Shown here: piece after piece, positions 406 through 10,883 of the stretch
How the letters are laid out: every line of letters begins with the position of its first letter
Numbering within the stretch: the first letter of the stretch is position 1
Source: a virus
IMG/VR virus record: IMGVR_UViG_3300023174_000639
Location: 1 to 23,596 of that record
Strand: one strand, 5' to 3'
DNA: 23,596 nucleotides
Notes under the pieces: generated by a model
What the model was told of the DNA's origin: nothing
What the model saw: the letters and a program-made list of their open reading frames with translations, nothing else
Databases searched by the model: none
Position numbers and translations under genes: made by a program

Positions 406-1305
406 TTATCTACGACCACGGAAAAGGCTTTGCTTGTTGTCTGGTGATTCTTTTGCACCAGCTTTTTCGGCACCATGTCCTGGCTCTTTTGTTGAGAAAG
501 CACCACCGGCTTTGCCGCCTGGAACATTAATGTTGCCTTTAGCATGTGGATTGTCGCCAGCTTTAGTATTGCTTAGTGCGGAACCTTTCATAGCACCGCC
601 TGCAGCACCTACTTCACCTGCGTCAGCACCGTTACGACCACTTAGGATATTAGCAGTTGTGCCACCCATGTCGTTCTTGCTGAATTTCATACCTTGTGCA
701 TTTGTAGCAGAACCTTGGCCTTTATCGCCAGTTCCTACCAAAGCGCCTTCACCGGCACCTTTCTTTTCTGCGCCATGGCCGTTTGCAACTTTCTCAACGT
801 ATTCACGTACAGTTGCTAGATCGCCCATGCCTTCTTCTTTAGCAAATGGATTTTCGCCTTCTTCGCTGTCGTCGCCCATATCGTCGCCACCTTTGAGTTC
901 ATCAAATTTAGCTTGTAGTTCATCAACGATAGAGTCTAGGTCTTGAAACAATTCTTCTTCAGACTTTTCGCCACCTTCTTCGTCATCCATTTCTGCATCA
1001 ATATCGCCTTCTAGATCGTCAGTTGGATCTCCGCCCATTGCAGGCATGTCGTCGTCGCCTTCGATGGCAATATCTTCAAATTCTTCGTCAACTTTGTCTT
1101 CTTCTGCATCTTCATCTTTAGCAGCTTCGTCCATGTCTTCGTCTTCATCTTTTTCTTCTTCTTCAGCGATTTCGCTGTCGATTAAAGATTCGTAGATTTC
1201 ACGAGATGCTGTAACCACGTACTCGTGGAACAGTTCTTCTGCTTTAGCTTGATCGTCATTGACCAAATGCTCAAGCATTTGTTGTAGTAGTTTATTATCG
1301 GCCAT
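406..1305 (-). CDS. Acidic prohead core (scaffold) protein, gp68-like position
   Basis: A 299-aa protein. Residues 1-48 are predicted helical (MADNKLLQQMLEHL..., then EYVVTASREIYESLIDSEIAE). A very acidic stretch of Glu/Asp runs from about 48 to 160, and the C-terminal half is Gly/Ala/Lys-rich and ends FRGRR. The helical start, the acidic low-complexity middle and the place between portal and gp21 fit an internal scaffold/core protein of the T4 gp67/gp68/gp22 kind, which fills the prohead and is digested by gp21. Sites of the T4 gp21 type occur at I37-Y-E39/S and I46-A-E48/E. A strong ribosome site (GAGGAGAT) lies about 5 nt before the ATG. Which T4 core protein it matches cannot be decided by eye, because scaffold sequences diverge quickly. 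Confidence 0.7.
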   Translation of the reverse strand: MADNKLLQQMLEHLVNDDQAKAEELFHEYVVTASREIYESLIDSEIAEEEEKDEDEDMDEAAKDEDAEEDKVDEEFEDIAIEGDDDMPAMGGDPTDDLEGDIDAEMDDEEGGEKSEEELFQDLDSIVDELQAKFDELKGGDDMGDDSEEGENPFAKEEGMGDLATVREYVEKVANGHGAEKKGAGEGALVGTGDKGQGSATNAQGMKFSKNDMGGTTANILSGRNGADAGEVGAAGGAMKGSALSNTKAGDNPHAKGNINVPGGKAGGAFSTKEPGHGAEKAGAKESPDNKQSLFRGRR

Positions 1306-1370: not shown

Positions 1371-2023
1371 ATGGTAGTTTTTTGATTGATTTGATCAGAA
1401 TATATAGTATCAGGAAAACTTCTACTAAATTCGTCGTAAGTGATATGACTTAGGTTAGTCAAGGTAGGGCCTAGTTTGTCTGGTATAAATGCACCGGGTT
1501 CTATTACCCTAAAAAAATGTATGTGACGGAATTCTTTGATTACTTTTTCAGTCTGACTTAACCAGTTTCCGTGATATGTGGCTGCATCTGTTGATTTTTT
1601 ATAGTTGAATGTATCTGCGTAAATGTTGTTGAATTTACCGTTGTTGCCTTGATAGTCAAAGCCAAAAATATAGATTGTTTTGTGTTCTTGGGTAGCAGCG
1701 AACCACAATGCTGTGGGCCCTGAGCTCCATCCCTTGTGCGGACTAAAAAAATTAATACCGTGCTTGGTCTGTATGCCCTTGTTGGGATTAGTCCATACTT
1801 GATGTTTTTTATGATAGCCGGATTCTATGATTTCGTTGACCATTTTTACATCTACAGCTATTAGATAGTTTGGTTCAAACTCACGATATTGTGCATTGCA
1901 CCCGTAAGTTACACCTTTGGTCATTAGAGAACGAATGTCTAAGCACTGTCGGCTTGTGCCGTTGCCTATGACAAATCCGGGATTATTCTGCAGGTGCTGC
2001 TTCTTCGCCAACTGGAGTTCCAT
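1367..2023 (-). CDS. Glycosyltransferase-fold-like protein (GT42 / DUF115-MptE style motifs)
   Basis: A 218-aa protein that I could not assign to a T4 gene. Near the N-terminus it has GFVIGNGTSR (about 16-25), then TYGCNAQYREFEPNYLIAVD (about 39-58), and near the middle SSGPTALWFAATQEHKTIYI followed by FGFDY. This set (GNGxS, a GCN motif, D after a hydrophobic strand, SGxxA...IYIFGFD) resembles the nucleotide-sugar or nucleotide-binding fold of Campylobacter CstII-type sialyltransferases (GT42) and DUF115/MptE proteins. The family link is inferred from motifs, and enzymatic activity is not shown. The ATG at 2023 overlaps the upstream gene by 41 bp in another frame and has only a weak ribosome site. 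The first conserved residues begin about 16 codons in, so the true start may be later and non-ATG, or translation may be coupled. Confidence 0.6.
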   Translation of the reverse strand: MELQLAKKQHLQNNPGFVIGNGTSRQCLDIRSLMTKGVTYGCNAQYREFEPNYLIAVDVKMVNEIIESGYHKKHQVWTNPNKGIQTKHGINFFSPHKGWSSGPTALWFAATQEHKTIYIFGFDYQGNNGKFNNIYADTFNYKKSTDAATYHGNWLSQTEKVIKEFRHIHFFRVIEPGAFIPDKLGPTLTNLSHITYDEFSRSFPDTIYSDQINQKTTI

Positions 2024-2234
2024 ACATTTGTCTTATAAAGTCCAGTTCAGATTGTGATTCTAATTGATGTGCTTCGCTTTGAAGCCTTAGTTGATTGATT
2101 TGTCGCAGTGTAAGACGTATCTTTCTGGTGTCTTTTTTGTCAATGATGCTGCGATCTCTGCTGGACTCATATCTACGATCTTGAGCAAAGTCGTTGTTTT
2201 TTTCGTTGAAGTAAAAGAATTCGTTAAGAAGCAT
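1983..2234 (-). CDS. Small conserved head-module protein in the gp67 position
   Basis: 83 aa, beginning MLLNEFFYFNEKNNDF, with a charged helical middle (RRYESSRDRS, then DTRKIRLTLRQINQLRLQ) and ending QMYGTPVGEEAAPAE. It lies 10 nt after the portal stop, where T4 has gene 67 (a prohead core protein of similar size). I recognise this type of protein from marine T4-like phages, next to the portal gene, but know of no proven function. No Shine-Dalgarno sequence precedes the ATG; AATAAATA ends 4 nt before it. Its 3' end overlaps the next gene by 41 bp. Confidence 0.7.
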   Translation of the reverse strand: MLLNEFFYFNEKNNDFAQDRRYESSRDRSIIDKKDTRKIRLTLRQINQLRLQSEAHQLESQSELDFIRQMYGTPVGEEAAPAE

Positions 2235-2238
2235 AATG

Positions 2239-2246
2239 TATTTATT
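2239..2246 (-). promoter_or_regulatory. Possible late-promoter box (AATAAATA) overlapping the portal stop
   Basis: AATAAATA on the minus strand differs by one base from the T4 late consensus TATAAATA. The same variant precedes other transcription units here (10907-10914, 15750-15757). Transcription from it would begin at or just inside the ATG of the 83-aa gene, giving a leaderless or truncated message, so it may serve the downstream genes or be fortuitous in AT-rich DNA. Confidence 0.3.
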
Positions 2247-3951
2247 ACTGAACTGGTGCTTCTGGTGCTGCTTCTGCGCCGGCGTCTGCCCCTGGTTCTG
2301 CGGCAGCTGCCATGTCTAAAGGTGCTTCTGCTTCTTGACTGCCTACATCTGCAGCCATGCCTCCGGGTGTTACTCCTATGCCTCGTAGCTGGCTCTGGGC
2401 ATCAGCAGGTGCTTTGAGATTGGCACCGTTTTCTTCACGCCACATTCTTTCGTTTTCTTTGACTTCGTCTTCAGTCATACCCAAGAATCGCTTCATGGCA
2501 AAACGTTTGCTGAGATGTGGAATCTGTACTACCTGTGCAAATGTAGCTGCTCGAGCTGTGTCAAGTTCACTTTGACGATAAGCAGCAAAGTTCTGAGGCT
2601 GATTAAATTTAAGTTCAAACAGTCCGCTATCAATGTTAACACCTTGATCATTGAGCCACAGTTTAAATTCAAGATCAAATGTTTCTACTATAATACTCTG
2701 TAGACGTTTGCAGTATTCATTGAATCTCAGCTCTTGGATGTAAGCTGTGCCTACTTTACCGTCCGACACAGTGTTAGCTTGTTCATCAATAGACGTAGGA
2801 AGGTAGGAAGCTGGTATACGCAGAGCACGGAATAGTTTGTTGGTAAAGTAACGTAGATCAGTGATTTCACCTAGATTAGTACCACCCGGCAGTGTTTCAA
2901 CTTTTGATCCGCGGCCTTCTGCTGTTTGCGGAAAAAAGTAATCTTCGTTTACACTTAGAGGATTATAACTAGCGTCTATGACGTTGGCTCCGCCACCTGT
3001 TGAGCTAGGAATACGCCGCTGTTGGATTTCGTTTTTTACACGTTCAACAAAGCTCATGGCCATGTGTGCCGGCATATTTCCAACGTCCACATAGAAAATA
3101 CGTCTTTCTGGAGCACGTTGTATACGATAGATAATGATAGCGTCTTCAAGCAATTCTTTCTGCTTGTAGACTTTGAATACTGATTCTAATAGACTGTTGC
3201 CAAATGGATAGTTATTGTCTAGTCCTTCTGACAAGGAAAGATGAATAACATGTTTGGCATCCACTGTGATTTCATTGGTTTGATTACTGAATCTTGTGCC
3301 TACTGAACGTGCTGCATCACCGGCAAACCCTCTGGCCATGCCGCCACCCGATGTGTATGAACTTGTACCGCTAGGAGCTGTGTTGGTAGTGTTATGAGGT
3401 GTTGTAGCTATGAATTCTTTGAAGTTGAAGTTGAGATCACGGATCACATACTGTTCAGGAATCTTGCCTTCTGATTCGTTAACGATAATCTTGGTTACTT
3501 TGGCAGCATCTACAAATAACCACTTTTTGGTTTCTGGATCACGAATGAAAAAGCAGTCACCATATTTGAATGCATTACGCAGTATGCGGAAGATCCTAGT
3601 TTCAAAACTATTCTGCTTGCACCACTTTTGTAGGCTGTCTTTGAGTATTTTAACTTCAGTAGCAGTAGGCTCGCCACGGAAAAATGTGTGGAACGGTGTA
3701 GCGTTTTCTTTGTCTTTTTGTGTGCAAAACTCTGTGAGTATGTCCAAAGCAGCATTGACTTCTGAGTCCATGTCCATGGTGTCATACTGCATGTATCGTT
3801 CAATACGATTTGGTGAACCTGCATAGACATCTGGCAGATAACTGCTGTAGTTAGCACGAGCAGGTCCTGGACGTCCGCGACCACTAATTGGGCTCATACT
3901 GCCGCCCGAGTTGTCTATGTTAACAGGTGTAAAGTATTTTTTCCAGCTCAT
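2245..3951 (-). CDS. 20: Portal vertex protein gp20
   Basis: 568 aa, close to the 524 aa of T4 gp20. It forms the dodecameric portal ring at one capsid vertex, through which DNA is packaged and to which the tail attaches. Telling segments: SPNRIERYMQYDTMDMDSEV then NAALDILTEFCTQKD near the N-terminus, IYRIQRAPERRIFYVDVGNM in the middle, and LFRALRIPASYLPTSIDE followed by EQANTVSDGKVG. These are hallmark T4 portal sequences. The C-terminal 50 residues are Ala/Gln/Pro-rich and disordered-looking. The ATG overlaps the stop of the tape-measure-like gene by ATGA, so translation is probably coupled. Confidence 0.95.
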   Translation of the reverse strand: MSWKKYFTPVNIDNSGGSMSPISGRGRPGPARANYSSYLPDVYAGSPNRIERYMQYDTMDMDSEVNAALDILTEFCTQKDKENATPFHTFFRGEPTATEVKILKDSLQKWCKQNSFETRIFRILRNAFKYGDCFFIRDPETKKWLFVDAAKVTKIIVNESEGKIPEQYVIRDLNFNFKEFIATTPHNTTNTAPSGTSSYTSGGGMARGFAGDAARSVGTRFSNQTNEITVDAKHVIHLSLSEGLDNNYPFGNSLLESVFKVYKQKELLEDAIIIYRIQRAPERRIFYVDVGNMPAHMAMSFVERVKNEIQQRRIPSSTGGGANVIDASYNPLSVNEDYFFPQTAEGRGSKVETLPGGTNLGEITDLRYFTNKLFRALRIPASYLPTSIDEQANTVSDGKVGTAYIQELRFNEYCKRLQSIIVETFDLEFKLWLNDQGVNIDSGLFELKFNQPQNFAAYRQSELDTARAATFAQVVQIPHLSKRFAMKRFLGMTEDEVKENERMWREENGANLKAPADAQSQLRGIGVTPGGMAADVGSQEAEAPLDMAAAAEPGADAGAEAAPEAPVQ

Positions 3952-6698
3952 GCTTTGTATAGATTCTTATTAAGACCTTTGGTTGCATTAAAGGTTTCAA
4001 ATGTGTTAACCTGCGTTCCAGCTGCGTGTTTTATCAATTGTTCCATCTTAGTATTTAACTCCGCAAGCAGTGTAGTGGCAGAATTCTGAGGGCTTTTGTT
4101 TTGCTCTTCTTTGGTTTTGGCTTCTGCATCTGATTTGGCTTTGGCTTCTGCATCTGTTTTGGCTTTGGCTTCTGCTTCCTGTTTTTTCTTGTCAGCATCA
4201 GATACTGCTGCTGCAACTGCGGTATTAGCTTGTTGAGTAGCTGCTGGCTTATCTGGAATTAGAGCACTGCCTTCCCGTGCAGCAAACCCTTTTAATAGAT
4301 CTTCGCTGCTGCCAGTTAAATTTAAACCGGCACTTTCTTGAGCAGCTTTCTTATCCAACGCATCTTTGGCTTTTTTATTGCTTTCATCTTGTTGCTTGTT
4401 GAATCCTGCTTTGGATTTGAGATTTTTTGCATCTAATCCTTCATGCAGTGCTGCTCGTCTTTCTTCTTTAGCTTTTGCATCTGCTGCTGCTTTGTCTGCT
4501 TCTGCTTTTTCATCAGCAACAATTTTAGCTGCGTTGGTCTGCATCCTATTTTTAGTAGCAACTTCGAGCTGTAATTTTTCGTTTTCGTTGGTTTTCTTTT
4601 CTTCTTGGATGTCCTGTAGATCCTTGTCAAAGTCTCCTCGCATGCCGGGTATCTTATTCAGTAAACTAAAGATACCTTCTTTTAATGACAACCAAAGACC
4701 TTTCATCATTAGTCCTACATACTTGAATGCATTTCCTACTACTTCAATGTCGCCCCCTAGACGTTTAAAATGATCGTACAATTTGGTCACCCCAAACACC
4801 ATCGCTGCAACTGCGGCTGTTACTGCAATTATAGGCCATGTCACTGCGATCACTGCGGCCGCAAGTGCTAGCATAGGTGGTATCTGTGCTAATAGTGCTG
4901 GTAGGGCCATGGCCATTTGAATACCATAGTATATTCCTAATGCCACTGCAAGGGTTTTTAAAATAGGAACCACGTTGTCTAACACAAACAGCGTGAGACT
5001 TTGAAATGCTGGCCACACATAGTCTCGAATCAATCCGCCAATCATAGTCAACGCAGGTTCAAAGAAGTTGTACAGATTTTCCCATGCGCCTTGCAGAGCA
5101 GGCAGTAGATCTACTAATACAAATTCAGCCAGCGACAACAATGCTGGCATCACTGTGTTTTCTAAAAATACTCCAAGATTAGCAAACGCTGGTTCAAGTA
5201 CATCAAACAACATGCCGCCTACCGTAGTTACTACAGCGGCCATAACGTTAAAGGCTGGTACTAGATATTTCATAACCAGTCCAGCTGTGAATTCAAATGC
5301 TCTCATTAGCAAATCTAATAATCCGCTGTTAGCCAAAGCCATTTGGAAACTATTAGAGAATGCTGCCAACGCTTCTTGGCTTTTGTTGACTTTTTCATTT
5401 AATCCGTCTGTGTTTTTTGCAGCGTCATTTTGAGCTGCTGCTGCATCTTTGGTAGCATCAGTGTTAATTCTCATACCAGCAGCCACATCTGCAGACACAG
5501 CCGCCATTTCAGAACTGCTTCTGTAGGCTGTTTTATTTCTGTCCATGGTGCTCTTGGCTTCTGACTTCATGTTATTCAGAGTTTGGTTGCGTTCCTGATC
5601 TGAAATTTTAATGTTGCTTTGAGTCTGCTGATGTTGTCGTTGCAGTTGTGCATACAATTCAGGATAGGCTGCTGCTAATTGTCTACTGCTGTCAGTAGTA
5701 GCTGATCCTGATGATAGCACATCTTTGGCAAAATCTTTTAGTCCTTGAGACGGCATTGACTGAACCATGTTTAGCATAGAGTCTGCAACATCTTTGTTTA
5801 GTCCCTGCTGTGCAGCAGCAAATTGTCCGTCTTTGATCAGTCTTTCTCGTTCTTTTTCTTTATCTGCTCTGCTTTCACCTGTGACTTTGGCCAACGCATC
5901 CATTTCTTTGAGATAATTTTTAGCTCCTTGAGCTAGTTCTGCATTGCTTTGTGTGCCTTGTCTTCCAGAATTTCTTAGATTTTTTGTATAGTTGGCCAGG
6001 CCTTGATTGATGTCTTGTGTAGAATATCCCAAAGCATATAAATCACTACCTGTGGCTCGCAATGCTTTAGAAACATCTCCAAATCGTTTAGCACCTGCTT
6101 CCACGTTTGATCCCAAACCTAACATAGCTTCGCCGTTGTTAGAGATTAATGAACCAAACTGCTCCATGGTCATACCTGCTCGGCCGGCAGCAGCACTAAA
6201 CGATGAAATGCTTCCACCAAACGTTGCTCCGCCTTTAGATACTTCATTGAAGCTTTTTGCCACGCTAGTAGCTGCACCTGCTACTGCGGTGAACATAGTA
6301 CCAACTATAGGAATAGATGAAAAAATGTTTGCAGCAGCATTTAGATCATTGCCAACATTGGCAAATTGTTTTATGGTGTTTGTTACTGCTGAGGACATAC
6401 GATCAAGTCCTCCAACAACAGTACCTGTGGTGCCGACCAGTGTACCAAATGCCTTGCCTACCCCGGAAGCCATTTTGGACATTGCTCCAGGCCCGCTAGC
6501 TCCTCCACCTCCACCAGTATTACCACCTCCTCCACCTCCACCAGTATTACCACCTCCGCCTCCAGGTCCTGGAGGGCCAGGTCTGCGGGGGCCGCCTCCT
6601 TGCAGTGCTTTAAGAATTTCTTTCAGTGTGGCGTCAGAGGCTGCATTTTTAGCTTCTACTTGTCCAATTCCTGGAATGTCGATCATTACTGCTGCCAT
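3948..6698 (-). CDS. Tape-measure-like virion protein
   Basis: 916 aa, not recognisable as T4 gp29 but with the build of a tail tape measure. The N-terminus (MAAVMIDIPGIGQVEAKNAA) is followed by a Gly/Pro-rich linker at about 35-70. A long helical Ala/Gln/Lys-rich part comes next, then several hydrophobic helices between about 455 and 660 (FEFTAGLVMKYLVPAFNVMA; LALAAAVIAVTWPIIAVTAA), and a charged Ala/Lys/Glu coiled-coil region from about 690 to 880. Tape measures set tail length and are ejected through the tube. At about 1.5 angstrom per residue, 916 residues would be enough for a tail of up to roughly 135 nm, which is an upper bound. AGGAAA lies about 11 nt before the ATG. It heads the minus-strand head/tail unit from the late box at 6750-6757. 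Confidence 0.65.
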   Translation of the reverse strand: MAAVMIDIPGIGQVEAKNAASDATLKEILKALQGGGPRRPGPPGPGGGGGNTGGGGGGGNTGGGGGASGPGAMSKMASGVGKAFGTLVGTTGTVVGGLDRMSSAVTNTIKQFANVGNDLNAAANIFSSIPIVGTMFTAVAGAATSVAKSFNEVSKGGATFGGSISSFSAAAGRAGMTMEQFGSLISNNGEAMLGLGSNVEAGAKRFGDVSKALRATGSDLYALGYSTQDINQGLANYTKNLRNSGRQGTQSNAELAQGAKNYLKEMDALAKVTGESRADKEKERERLIKDGQFAAAQQGLNKDVADSMLNMVQSMPSQGLKDFAKDVLSSGSATTDSSRQLAAAYPELYAQLQRQHQQTQSNIKISDQERNQTLNNMKSEAKSTMDRNKTAYRSSSEMAAVSADVAAGMRINTDATKDAAAAQNDAAKNTDGLNEKVNKSQEALAAFSNSFQMALANSGLLDLLMRAFEFTAGLVMKYLVPAFNVMAAVVTTVGGMLFDVLEPAFANLGVFLENTVMPALLSLAEFVLVDLLPALQGAWENLYNFFEPALTMIGGLIRDYVWPAFQSLTLFVLDNVVPILKTLAVALGIYYGIQMAMALPALLAQIPPMLALAAAVIAVTWPIIAVTAAVAAMVFGVTKLYDHFKRLGGDIEVVGNAFKYVGLMMKGLWLSLKEGIFSLLNKIPGMRGDFDKDLQDIQEEKKTNENEKLQLEVATKNRMQTNAAKIVADEKAEADKAAADAKAKEERRAALHEGLDAKNLKSKAGFNKQQDESNKKAKDALDKKAAQESAGLNLTGSSEDLLKGFAAREGSALIPDKPAATQQANTAVAAAVSDADKKKQEAEAKAKTDAEAKAKSDAEAKTKEEQNKSPQNSATTLLAELNTKMEQLIKHAAGTQVNTFETFNATKGLNKNLYKA
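4111..4182 (-). repeat. Three 24-bp tandem units in the tape-measure-like gene
   Basis: Units start at 4111, 4135 and 4159 with a few substitutions. They encode an 8-residue repeat of the form (T/S)DAEAKAK in the C-terminal coiled-coil region. The 24-bp period keeps frame, so copy-number change would lengthen the helix without breaking the gene. Confidence 0.75.
6502..6557 (-). repeat. Two 27-bp tandem units encoding a Gly-rich linker
   Basis: Near-identical copies begin at about 6502 and 6529 and encode GGNTGGGGG-type repeats near residues 45-66 of the tape-measure-like protein. Likely a flexible linker that can change length by slippage. Confidence 0.7.
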
Positions 6699-7644: not shown

Positions 7645-7848
7645 TTGCCGGAGATTTTACAGCTTTCCTCCGATATGGACAAAGAGGCAAAGGCTATAAA
7701 GAAAGATGTACTCAAATTGTGTTGGTATATGAGAGGCCTTTCTTATGCCGAAGTCATGAATATGAGTTGGGAAGAACGAGAAATCGTAGGTGAAATAATA
7801 AAAGAAAATTTAGAAACAACTAAAAAGACTGGATTAAATTTCTTTTAG
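7645..7848 (+). CDS. Small hub/tail assembly protein after gp26 (start uncertain)
   Basis: 67 residues if TTG at 7645 is used, 57 if ATG at 7675 is used. The core KLCWYMRGLSYAEVMNMSWE plus REIVGEIIKENLETTKKTG is typical of the small ORF after gp26 in marine T4-like phages, sometimes labelled gp51. It also resembles the C-terminal extension of tail assembly chaperones. Neither start has a convincing ribosome site. The ORF is in the -1 frame relative to gp26 and is open through CAAAAATAA at the end of gp26, so it may be made as a gp26 fusion by -1 slippage or by termination-reinitiation. Its TAG stop interlocks with the stop of the convergent gene at 7845. Confidence 0.65.
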   Translation: MPEILQLSSDMDKEAKAIKKDVLKLCWYMRGLSYAEVMNMSWEEREIVGEIIKENLETTKKTGLNFF

Positions 7849-8345
7849 AACAGTGTTGAAAATTGTTGTAGTGTGCTAATTTGTTTTGAATTCAACGGTT
7901 GACTACTAATCACTGTTTTGAGCGCCTGAGCTACTGCATCAGGATTATCAGTATCATACATGTTGTTTTTAACATTACTGCGTAGAGTTTTTAGCAATGC
8001 AATGTCTGAAGCCACCATTGGTGATCCTCGAGTAACTAAATCTAAAGTTTGAACTACAGAATCTGGATTCAATGCAGTGGATTTTTCTTGTGCTGCAGGT
8101 TCAGATGCTGCTACAGGTGCTGCTTTTTTTGTAGGAGTATCGCTGCCACCAAACCATTTTGACGGGCTTAAAAATTTATCTACAGCGGCTGCACCTTTTT
8201 TGTATCCCGCGACTGCTCTAGCAGGTGCTGCTGCAATACCGCCAGCAACTGCTCCGACACCTTTGGCCACTGATCCAACACCTCGTCCGATCACTCTACC
8301 GCCCGGATCCATGGGATTAGCTTCAATGAGCTCTTTTATTCTCAT
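7845..8345 (-). CDS. Putative prohead-targeted internal protein, MRI-leader family (166 aa)
   Basis: 166 aa, not assigned to a known T4 gene. It begins MRIKELIE-A, which ends in a T4 gp21-type site (L-x-E before Ala) after residue 8. Then comes a Gly/Ala-rich stretch GRGVGSVAKGVGAVAGG (about 20-36), closely similar to one in the upstream 355-aa protein, a basic-amphipathic patch, an Ala/Pro linker, and a helical C-terminus of about 75 residues. The leader matches the idea of a capsid targeting sequence as in T4 internal proteins (IPIII begins MKTYQEFIAE-A). Function is inferred from this likeness only. The ATG overlaps the previous stop by ATGA. Its stop interlocks with that of the plus-strand gene ending at 7848. 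Confidence 0.7.
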   Translation of the reverse strand: MRIKELIEANPMDPGGRVIGRGVGSVAKGVGAVAGGIAAAPARAVAGYKKGAAAVDKFLSPSKWFGGSDTPTKKAAPVAASEPAAQEKSTALNPDSVVQTLDLVTRGSPMVASDIALLKTLRSNVKNNMYDTDNPDAVAQALKTVISSQPLNSKQISTLQQFSTLF

Positions 8346-9409
8346 TTTCTAAATACGCTGATTGTGCCTTGCGATAATCCAGTTTCAAACATTTTCTGCT
8401 TGTGCATTTCTACACGTTGAGCTAACGCTTCTGACAATGCATTTCCGTAATTAATCTTGCTGGCATTTTGTTGCGTTAGTTGATTTGCCATTTGTCCCAT
8501 TGCTGCGTTGCCAGCTTTGGCTTTTTCGGCTGCTGCTGCTCTAGCATTACGTTTACGCACAGCATCAGGTGTTTGACTAAGTTGACCTGCTACTTTGCCG
8601 CCTGTTTTCTTAGGTAGAGGTTGATTAGGATTATCTGCAGCCGCTGTGTTTGTAGCACTAACTGGCGCATTAGCCATGGTGTTAGCTGGTGCTACTGCTG
8701 GATCTGCTGCTGGGGCTGCGCCTGCTGCTGGTGCTGCTGCCGTTGTTGGTTCAGCTGCCGGTGCTGCTGCTGGATCTGCTGCTGGTGCTGCTGTTGTCGG
8801 TTCAGCTGCCGGTGCTGCTCCCGCTGCCGGTTTAGGATCAGGAGTTGCCATTGATTTTTGTAGCAACTGTAAAATTCTCTGCTTGCCTTTCTTATCTAAC
8901 TTGTCTACGTTGGCTTTTACTTGAGCGTAGACTGTTTGTCCTGCTTTAGCAGTAGTCTGTTGATCCACTGCTGCTGTGGTTTTAGCTAACGCGGCGCCTG
9001 CTGCGCCTGTTTGAGCCGTTGCAGGTGCTGTGCCTGCAGGTCCTTGCGCATTGATATCTTGTGCTGAAGGTGCGGTTCCACTCGGTGCTGATGCTGGTGC
9101 GCCTCCTGCTGCAGACGCTGGTGCTGCGGCTCCTCCTGCTGCTGGTGCTCTGGCTGGCGCTGCCGCTGTTTTACCTGCTGCCGGTGCAGCTCCTGGAACA
9201 TCGTCCCCAGCTCCGCTTACCACTTCCTTACCTGCTTGGAAACCTTTTTTTACAGCAGCTCCTAGACCAGCAACGCCGCCTGCTACTGACCCAACACCTT
9301 TGGCCAACGCTCCCACACCTTTGCCTACAGCAGATCCAATTTTATTTAGAATCGGACCTTCTTCTAGCTGTTGAAGCTGTGATTCAGTTAATAGTTCGTT
9401 AATTCTCAT
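8342..9409 (-). CDS. Putative prohead-targeted internal protein, MRI-leader family (355 aa)
   Basis: 355 aa. It begins MRINELLTE-S, a gp21-type site after residue 9, with a second at L-E-E/G about 8 residues later (LQQLEEGPI). GKGVGALAKGVGSVAGGVAG follows at about 29-48. Residues about 75-150 and 190-250 are Ala/Pro/Gly low complexity, with the motif AEPTTAA repeated. Between them lies YAQVKANVDKLDKKGKQR, which resembles YAEIKKSIMQLNTKDRKR at the C-terminus of the 490-aa protein. A helical C-terminus contains ALSE-A (about 327) and ends TGLSQGTISVFRK. I know no enzyme signature here. A structural or DNA-associated internal head protein is the best guess. It starts 1 nt after the stop of the 490-aa gene and is probably coupled. 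Confidence 0.7.
   Translation of the reverse strand: MRINELLTESQLQQLEEGPILNKIGSAVGKGVGALAKGVGSVAGGVAGLGAAVKKGFQAGKEVVSGAGDDVPGAAPAAGKTAAAPARAPAAGGAAAPASAAGGAPASAPSGTAPSAQDINAQGPAGTAPATAQTGAAGAALAKTTAAVDQQTTAKAGQTVYAQVKANVDKLDKKGKQRILQLLQKSMATPDPKPAAGAAPAAEPTTAAPAADPAAAPAAEPTTAAAPAAGAAPAADPAVAPANTMANAPVSATNTAAADNPNQPLPKKTGGKVAGQLSQTPDAVRKRNARAAAAEKAKAGNAAMGQMANQLTQQNASKINYGNALSEALAQRVEMHKQKMFETGLSQGTISVFRK
8690..8835 (-). repeat. Ala/Pro/Thr-coding repeat tract
   Basis: GCTG-rich low-complexity DNA with two near copies of a 36-39 bp unit, about 8730-8768 and 8784-8819, differing by a 3-bp deletion and a few substitutions. It encodes AEPTTAA and PAAGAAPAADPA type linkers in the 355-aa protein. 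All length changes seen keep frame. Confidence 0.7.
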
Positions 9410-9410
9410 A

Positions 9411-10883
9411 TCAAGCGGTTCCTAGTTGTTTGGTAAGATAAGCAATCATGCGTTTTCTATCTTTAGTATTTAACTGCATAATTGACTTTTTAATTTCTGC
9501 ATAGCCACTAGTTGCGGCAGCCGGAGTTTCAGCTGGGCTTGCAGTGTCTAGTTTCATATCAGTGTATACTTTGGTAACAATGTCTGGTGATACTTCCATA
9601 CTGGTTAGAAACTTTTTCAGTTCTTCGGAATCTGTTGGCGATCCATCTAGCTTCCATCCTGCTAAAAGTTTTTCGTAGGTAATTTTGTTTGTGATGTTTT
9701 GACCAACACGGTCAATGCCTTTGCCTACTGCACCAACAACTTTGCCAGCGCCTGCTTTGAGTTTGTCCATAAATCCAGCTTCTGTAAGCACACGATTAAA
9801 AAGTAGATAAACTTGACCTTCGCTTAATGGACGAGTTTGAACATAATAACTTTCTTTCTTTTCAGATCCAGTCGAAGCTGCCACAGCACCTTGAGCTCCT
9901 GCTTGAAGTCCTTGTTTAGCTGTGTTGATAAACTGTAATATACTGTCGTTGTCTTTAGCAGCTTTCCAGGCACCGTCTACCATGCTCTGCATGTCTGCCA
10001 TGTATTCTTTGCTACGAACTATATCGGCAACTGCTTTTAACTGATCAAACCCTTCGCCTGCTCCGTCACCACCACCTTTGATTAAATTCATAGCTGCACG
10101 AATAGCACTAGCTTCTTCTGGTTTGACTAATGCGTTGAATCCTTGAGTAGTCTGTGTCCACTCCATCCCCGGCGCTCTTAGAGTTTTAGTTGCGCCCCAG
10201 CTGACATTTTCTAATCCGGCATCACTGGATCCAAACGGTATAGACTGTTCACGGAACCCTGCTATCCAGTTGCCTAGCATTTCAAATGCTTTGCCAGATA
10301 GATAACCCAATGCAGCAGTTTTAACACCTTTGCCGATAGCTGTAGAAAGTTTTTCACCTTTGATCAATTCAGCTGCACCACGTAGAACTTGACCAGCTAT
10401 AGCACCGCCTACAGGACCACCTGCTAGCGAAGCTAATGCTGTTAATACACCAATAACGGCTGCGCTTTTGCCTGGATTTTCTTTCATCCAGATGCCTAAA
10501 TTTGAAATTCCGTCTAACAGTTTTGAATCAGGAAACTTTTTATTAATATCATTTTTAAGTTTTTCAAATTTTTGATCCATAGCCTGAACAGGCTTGGTAT
10601 TCTGCAACCACTTGCCAACGTTATTAATAGTATCGTTGACTTTTTTAACACCGTCTACACCAAGGCCTGCAAGGGTTCTATTATCACCACCTGCAATAGC
10701 AGCTTGCTCGACATTTTTAAAGATGCCTTTAATTTGATCTGCTGTTAGAGTAGCTTCAATTAAAGGCACGAATTCATTGTAAATTCCCTCTACAATACGT
10801 CTCTGTTCGAGAGTTAGTCCATCACACGACTCTTTAAGTATTTGTCGATGATTATTGCTTTCTATTAGATGTTCAATGCGCAT
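9411..10883 (-). CDS. Putative prohead-targeted virion protein, MRI-leader family (490 aa)
   Basis: 490 aa. It begins MRIEHLIE-S. The first 44 residues hold four gp21-type sites: after E8 (LIE/S), E18 (LKE/S), E32 (IVE/G) and E43 (LIE/A). Two more lie near E355 (LSE/G) and E368 (LTE/A), at the joint between a central domain and the C-terminal module. The central part (about 135-215) has Gly/Ala-rich hydrophobic helices (SAAVIGVLTALASLAGGPVG) that could insert in membranes. From about 369 a module follows: GKVVGAVGKGIDRVGQ, then GWKLDGSPTDSEELKKFL, then a terminal helical YAEIKKSIMQL domain. I recognise similar modules in marine phage virion proteins but know no proven function. It is the first gene of its unit, with a late box 24 nt upstream. 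Confidence 0.7.
   Translation of the reverse strand: MRIEHLIESNNHRQILKESCDGLTLEQRRIVEGIYNEFVPLIEATLTADQIKGIFKNVEQAAIAGGDNRTLAGLGVDGVKKVNDTINNVGKWLQNTKPVQAMDQKFEKLKNDINKKFPDSKLLDGISNLGIWMKENPGKSAAVIGVLTALASLAGGPVGGAIAGQVLRGAAELIKGEKLSTAIGKGVKTAALGYLSGKAFEMLGNWIAGFREQSIPFGSSDAGLENVSWGATKTLRAPGMEWTQTTQGFNALVKPEEASAIRAAMNLIKGGGDGAGEGFDQLKAVADIVRSKEYMADMQSMVDGAWKAAKDNDSILQFINTAKQGLQAGAQGAVAASTGSEKKESYYVQTRPLSEGQVYLLFNRVLTEAGFMDKLKAGAGKVVGAVGKGIDRVGQNITNKITYEKLLAGWKLDGSPTDSEELKKFLTSMEVSPDIVTKVYTDMKLDTASPAETPAAATSGYAEIKKSIMQLNTKDRKRMIAYLTKQLGTA

Follow-up and report, generated by a model that had tools for sequence, protein, structure and literature searches.

A portable leader ending in a prohead protease motif precedes candidate internal head proteins of an environmental jumbo T4-type phage

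IMG/VR virus record IMGVR_UViG_3300023174_000639 is a single contig of 23.6 kb with T4-type late genes, which we analyzed whole (23,596 nucleotides; the window). Three adjacent minus-strand open reading frames (ORFs), P1 (9411..10883, 490 aa), P2 (8342..9409, 355 aa) and P3 (7845..8345, 166 aa), lie where an earlier note on this DNA had placed them and begin, as it said, with MRI: MRIEHLIE/S, MRINELLTE/S and MRIKELIE/A, respectively. In T4, the prohead protease gp21 cleaves by the rule L/I-x-E, and the internal proteins IPI, IPII and IPIII carry a capsid targeting sequence that gp21 processes (PMC9026906). Perhaps the leaders of P1 to P3 are tags of the same kind? Judging from sequence, we consider it quite probable that P1 to P3 are internal head proteins of a jumbo T4-type phage and that their leader is a gp21-processed capsid targeting tag on a portable module. 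Below, P1, P2 and P3 alone denote the proteins, while residues around a cut are always called cleavage position P3, P2, P1 or P1'.

How often would such a motif arise by chance? In six related contigs with 1117 genes, [LI]xE[ASG] with its Glu at residues 7 to 10 occurred at 1.8% of starts versus 0.9% of random internal positions. With a background this low, chance alone would not be expected to give three adjacent hits among ~20 genes. The simple genome-wide count near starts exceeded the internal baseline only about twofold, and hence a specific leader pattern was needed for a clear signal. Fifteen relatives, all with the same gene order, were found in viral contigs; leader scans enlarged the set to 65 P1, 80 P2 and 47 P3 hits, duplicates included.

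The N-termini of P1 homologues fall into several unrelated types, with propeptides of 35 to 52 residues, and all of these propeptides end in [L/I]-x-E/[A/V] immediately before a conserved xLTxDQ block. Scored without conditioning on Glu, the residue before the xxLTxDQ block was Glu in 31/31 homologues. Cleavage position P3 at this Glu was L or I, and position P2 varied (I, K, C, R, N, S or A). Fixed cleavage positions P3 and P1 with a free position P2 agree with the published gp21 rule. The P1 propeptide in the window (residues 1-43, 10755..10883, minus strand) has predicted cuts at E8/S, E18/S, E32/G and E43/A. E43 is the conserved one, and the mature protein likely starts at A44. The earlier note had counted these sites correctly, with three beyond the first in the initial 44 residues (E18, E32, E43) and two at a junction (E355, E368), but its new N-terminus directly after E8 did not hold up: E8 is poorly conserved, with H or N at cleavage position P1' in close homologues and quite different leaders in others. 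This lack of conservation, on which we rejected E8 as the mature start, also weighs against our interpretation of the leader. Some relatives have an additional, fourth gene with a leader (MRINEILIESQLNEEVLTE/L; product, 307 aa) directly upstream of P1 (L002:448-1371, plus strand; also L075, L092, L107 and L108).

The distribution of sites along P1 is uneven. Propeptides held 86 LxE sites versus 14.0 expected, and the bodies of 28 homologues held 10 versus 35.9 expected, in shuffle tests that, like those below, ignore shared descent, which counts against them. The predicted mature N-fragment (residues 44-355, 9819..10754, pI 9.0) is depleted of LxE sites; it includes a hydrophobic stretch at about residues 140-160. 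A junction follows (9780..9825), with LSE355/G and LTE368/A, and P1 homologues keep LSEGQ[VI]Y and then xLxE/[AG] there. Beyond it, the site scan and the homologues point to a mature C-fragment of residues 369-490 (9414..9779, pI 9.4). All three features are on the minus strand.

P2 is a basic protein with a Gly-rich segment, Ala/Pro-rich linkers and a small helical module. Its leader, MRINELLTE/S...QLEE/GP (9359..9409, minus strand), has predicted cuts at E9 and E17. Homologues start M[RK][IL]xE plus a hydrophobic pair, with the first Glu at residue 9, and nearly all have a second LxE/G 5-11 residues farther on; the linker changes length and both sites stay. A start at S10, as in the earlier note, is a prediction, and the second conserved site would give G18. 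Leaders of P2 homologues contained 63 LxE sites versus 12.9 expected. With leader and tail removed, the middle contained 4 versus 7.4, and a C-terminal site accounts for the P2 excess beyond the leader. This [LIV]xE site is found in 26/35 homologues and moves with the tail, which is short and basic (FRKK, for example) and lies at a varying distance from it; in the window, LSE327/A would release a tail ending ...SVFRK (8345..8428, minus strand). E5 of P2 also fits the bare [L/I]xE, as does E5 of P3. P3 is fast evolving, and the Glu of its leader (residues 1-8, 8322..8345, minus strand; predicted cut E8/A9) is kept in most homologues. In one P3 homologue (L080:7530-7772, plus strand), LND/G replaces LxE/G, which puts Asp at the predicted cut as a natural variant. 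Loss of L-x-E in homologues, which the earlier note would take as refutation, was seen at the first P1 site, whereas P2, the P1 mature start and most P3 proteins keep the motif.

Could P1 to P3 instead belong to the prohead core (scaffold), as T4 gp22, gp67 and gp68 do, and be cut by gp21 and largely leave the head? Cut sites are multiple in P1 and P2, head genes are adjacent, P2 is Ala/Pro rich and flexible, and the small PA5oct protein at the gp67 position, gp333, uses the same kind of leader (MKINDIITE/G; annotated by electrospray tandem mass spectrometry, ESI-MS/MS). However, one would expect the sites of a scaffold protein to be spread over the whole chain. Those of P1 and P2 cluster within the initial 45 residues, at one junction and at the C-terminus, which would leave fragments of ~312, 122 and 310 residues; the P1 body is depleted of sites and the P2 middle has no excess. 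The bodies are also basic, and the leader is common to enzyme-like proteins (see below). We consider a scaffold role rather unlikely.

We then asked how far the leader extends beyond this locus. A DNA pattern encoding M-[R/S]-I-[KNQH]-E-hydrophobic-hydrophobic-[TI]-E-[S/T-like] matched 83 IMG/VR stretches versus 1 for a control with the same codons scrambled, that one without an ORF; a search of this kind for enrichment over chance had been proposed in the earlier note. A Lys variant gave at least 120 matches. A third pattern stopped at MRINEILT and left the next residue free; four QueE-like MRINEIFT proteins were set aside as unrelated. The free residue was Glu in 58/59 leader ORFs, and it was followed by S (28), Q (10), N (7), A (4), D (3), G (3), K (2) or R (1).

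Among the matches listed, 221 leader ORFs formed about 66 groups that BLAST kept separate once the leader was removed, with dissimilar bodies, although a few Lys-pattern singletons among these groups may be chance. Pfam recognized an ADP-ribosyltransferase (ART) exoenzyme (PF03496, ADPrib_exo_Tox; L058, 1.5e-12), a SprT-like peptidase (L206, 8.8e-7), DUF6267 (L184) and DUF6321 (L309) and, below cut-off, ART-PolyVal (L056, 1.4e-4) and DUF2726 (L157); a PHROG match identified a T7 gp0.7-like kinase (L061, 1.1e-10). The pI exceeded 9 in 25/65 tagged representatives. A leader standing before dozens of unrelated bodies, ART-fold, kinase and peptidase among them, probably marks a kit of packaged host-acting proteins. 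DUF6267 homologues of cyanophages S-WAM1, P-HM1 and Syn1 lack the leader, whereas that of Melnitz-1 has it, so phages with the S77 protease, too, have gained and lost the leader. Is a suitable protease encoded alongside? gp21 was found in 13/20 long leader-bearing contigs, and gp23 in the same 13.

Two further kinds of leader protein were noticed. Small basic proteins of 60-86 aa have the leader and, immediately after it, a copy of the likely mature N-arm motif of the major capsid protein (MCP), [ST]ATAGATSAG (G005:78456-78638, G010:172655-172840 and G011:266291-266551, all minus strand; also L131, L169 and L173). Nucleotidyltransferase-like proteins with GRMNPPTIGH and similar motifs begin with MLLNELFE/A-type leaders (G010:174496-175641, G011:268897-269943, G005:80857-81774 and G019:11826-12431, all minus strand) and are possibly packaged as well.

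Does the Glu persist in a family found without the leader? A tagged ART family (alignments A2 and A3, distinct from P1 to P3) was searched by internal motifs only, independently of the leader. Its leaders vary (MRINEILTE, MKAVEFIAE, MRYTDFITE, MRSSEFITE, MQLDEILLRLNE and MNIKEILIE), and still the Glu before the mature start was present in 14/14 aligned members. Some of these, MKAVEFIAE/S and MRYTDFITE/S, resemble the T4 capsid targeting sequence, which we take to be MKTYQEFIAE/A; ten residues do not prove descent. Where another domain stands in front, LxE directly precedes the ART domain (QLDE/S, KLNE/S, KLME/S). The AlphaFold2 (AF2) model of A3 had a mean predicted local distance difference test score (pLDDT) of 83, with residues 1-10 below 50, i.e., a disordered leader. 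Residues 5-173 of the model gave VIA-align Z scores of 10.4 with Tpt1 and 9.9 with DarT, and the top Foldseek hits were DarT (best E, 1.1e-3); a profile of the family had no match among PDB sequences. By this model, A3 has the DarT/Tpt1 ADP-ribosyltransferase fold.

Phage records with distant homologues of this family allowed a comparison. The site before the ART domain and Peptidase_S77 occurred together in SCTP-2 (LNE/S), Slicko01 (LEE/G), Vibrio K566 and D484 (LAE/A, LEE/A) and LR756508 (LFE/A), and neither was present in JA13, HRDY3, Lu11, Sen-NF or RHph_N28_1. LxE/[AGS] was thus seen in 5/5 records with S77 versus 0/5 without (Fisher's exact p, 0.004; two-sided, 0.008), although several of the ten records are relatives and the true weight of this p is lower. 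In the Alishewanella phage Slicko01, four adjacent genes (L374:861-3806), two of them ART-like, have a common private leader that contains LYES-x-L-x-E; the tag sequence differs here, and the protease motif is unchanged.

In the MCP N-arms of this clade, LxE stands ahead of a conserved [STN]A[TS][AS]GAT block, as in KYLAE/SATAGATSAGN, and PA5oct, Phosso, 121Q, Atu_ph07 and CBB have LxE/[STN] there. By its position in the chain, this is likely the MCP cut. The match between leaders and likely MCP sites bears on a rival idea, that the leader is an unprocessed N-terminal localization or assembly helix, binding, e.g., portal, tail or membrane, whose likeness to L-x-E is incidental. Such a helix would sit well with the loose cleavage position P1' (S, Q, N, A, D, G, K or R), which weighs against a processed tag. 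It fits poorly with an invariant Glu next to a free cleavage position P2, with LxE before internal ART domains and with the co-occurrence of site and Peptidase_S77. We think this explanation improbable.

Other observations besides those given above also count against a processed targeting tag. The P3 leader lacks the motif in L080 (LND/G) and L011 (IATE/G), and some P2 homologues lack the C-terminal site. Neither gp21 nor gp23 appears in 7/20 long leader-bearing contigs, presumably as these are fragments, and G023 (264 kb) has a gp23 fragment and no S77 match. In PA5oct, the leader-like gp213, gp103 and gp158 are without an annotation of detection by mass spectrometry (MS). The MS annotation of PA5oct was discarded as an enrichment test, since leader-like genes were both detected and undetected and the numbers were too few.

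What might P1 to P3 do? None of the three matched a Pfam or PHROGs family above cut-off, tblastn of P1 and P2 against 50,697 phage records gave no match, and a P1 profile had none among PDB sequences. An AF2 model of P1 from 27 homologues had a pLDDT of 52, and we make no claim about its fold. If the proteins are packaged, they may be ejection proteins that build a DNA conduit across the envelope rather than soluble effectors. GKGVGAVAGG-like segments occur in P1, P2 and P3, and the P1 hydropathy peak coincides with predicted long helices around residues 140-160. The P1 model is poor, however, the peak is marginal (maximum Kyte-Doolittle mean, 1.7), and no homologue has a known function; a conduit is a tentative suggestion that we hold to be the less likely form of packaging. 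More speculatively, the basic charge of P1 to P3 would suit DNA association, and their Gly-rich segments would suit membrane contact.

A capsid-targeting leader that gp21 removes is the most economical account. The sequences show that the leader is portable, that its Glu is invariant before the P1 mature start, that sites are enriched and depleted where this account would have them and that protease and site co-occur; cleavage, packaging, injection and the roles of P1 to P3 are inferred. If P1 to P3 are internal head proteins as we propose, the leader M[RK]I-x-E-[IL]-[LI]-x-E would pull the new protein into the prohead core, as the T4 capsid targeting sequence does. A gp21-type protease would then cut after [L/I]-x-E, the body would stay inside the head, and retained bodies would probably exit with the DNA. 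Cleavage in the 43-residue multisite propeptide of P1 and at its internal junction would yield two basic pieces, and P2 would be cut at both ends.

Are such proteins new? The earlier note held that cargo of this kind is little described outside T4 itself. That view proved too narrow: at least 10 internal proteins recognized by their N-terminal signal have been reported from T-even phages (PMC12373910), and in giant phages such as SPN3US, longer propeptides have a similar proposed role (PMC5694885). The core idea of the note, protease-trimmed and capsid-targeted proteins, is strongly supported by sequence; its P1 start and its view of what had been described needed revision. Like T4 IPI to IPIII, the proteins here have a short N-terminal leader ending in L/I-x-E, unrelated and basic bodies, and a gp21-type protease in the genome. 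Unlike IPI to IPIII, they have the leader M[RK]IxE[IL][LI]xE, bodies unrelated to those proteins and from many more families, a longer multisite propeptide in P1 and, in P1 and P2, further sites at internal and C-terminal places, and their packaging is predicted. T4 Alt is a packaged, injected ADP-ribosyltransferase processed at both ends (PMC9026906). Related phages likewise have an ART fold behind a putatively cleavable leader, and two-end processing is predicted for P2, but the tagged ART family is DarT/Tpt1-like by fold and is not known to be related to Alt. SPN3US and phiKZ cut head and ejection proteins with their own prohead proteases (PMC5694885, PMC9026906); they share with the leaders here several-site propeptides, identical N-termini on diverged proteins and a proposed targeting role, but their propeptides mostly exceed 100 residues and the phiKZ motif is S/A-x-E. 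Injected Ip1 to Ip3 of T-even phages block type IV restriction enzymes (PMC12373910). They, too, are variable, signal-tagged accessory proteins found through the N-terminal signal; our searches found no sequence relation of P1 to P3 to them. Hence, the T4 capsid targeting sequence, the T-even Ip proteins and the giant-phage propeptides were already known, and the tag described here has a sequence of its own and stands on many more proteins. We found no description of it in environmental T4-type phages in the open-access literature.

The surroundings of P1 to P3 are those of a T4-type phage. Late genes in the window comprise a truncated gp21 protease, core proteins, gp20 portal, a gp26-like hub, P3-P2-P1, gp46/gp47/gp55-like genes and baseplate genes. 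The gp21 homologue that the earlier note saw at the contig start is a partial ORF cut off by the contig end (1..399; PHROG 207, head maturation protease, 3.6e-40; Pfam Peptidase_S77, 4.8e-15). Gene order was compared with that of PA5oct. An acidic protein at the gp68/core position (406..1305; phrog_15696, 1.4e-4, and synteny) has as its counterpart gp332, annotated as MS found, and the 83-aa protein at the gp67 position (1983..2234) corresponds to gp333. The gp20 portal protein (2245..3951; phrog_213, 1.1e-107) is most similar to those of the jumbo T4-type phages Phosso (50.6% identity), PA5oct (49.4%), Atu_ph07 (47.0%) and 121Q (44.4%). These four genes are on the minus strand. P1 to P3 were not recognizable in the corresponding neighborhood of PA5oct and Phosso. 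Between the hub and portal genes, a 916-aa protein (3948-6698) weakly matches tape-measure PHROG 1538, and its positional counterpart, PA5oct gp335, is an MS-detected structural protein. The ORF at 11375-11809 matches PHROG 447, labeled "NAD synthetase," yet its other matches are homing endonucleases; it resembles a GIY-YIG endonuclease, and the label is probably wrong.

TAAATA, the T4-type late promoter core, stood shortly before ATG in 16/66 leader groups, among the matches listed, versus 129/1625 other genes. In leader and other genes alike (e.g., L062, L110 and L303), it peaks sharply 10-11 nt before ATG, at which distance transcripts would begin almost at the start codon, as near-leaderless late mRNAs. 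At the P1 operon in the window, the exact TATAAATA was not found, and AATAAATA lies ~35 nt upstream of the P1 start.

On balance, we lean slightly toward a broader view, in which T4-type phages of the environment, jumbo phages among them, have an N-terminal packaging tag in common. It would mark proteins carried in the virion, a set without fixed limits whose members can be swapped (ART-fold proteins, peptidases, a kinase, P1 to P3 and small basic peptides), some of them delivered as pre-cut polyproteins. Virion-carried proteins are mostly known only for the few cultured phages with virion proteomics. If this view is true, the proteins that uncultured phages inject could be named from a tag recognized in sequence data alone: the short protease-linked leader makes the question of what an uncultured T4-type phage carries one of sequence, and proteins lacking any other annotation become candidates for host takeover that can be tested. 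The capsid targeting principle of T4 would then also seem to be in much wider use, and to cover more kinds of protein, than one would judge from the internal proteins of T-even phages.

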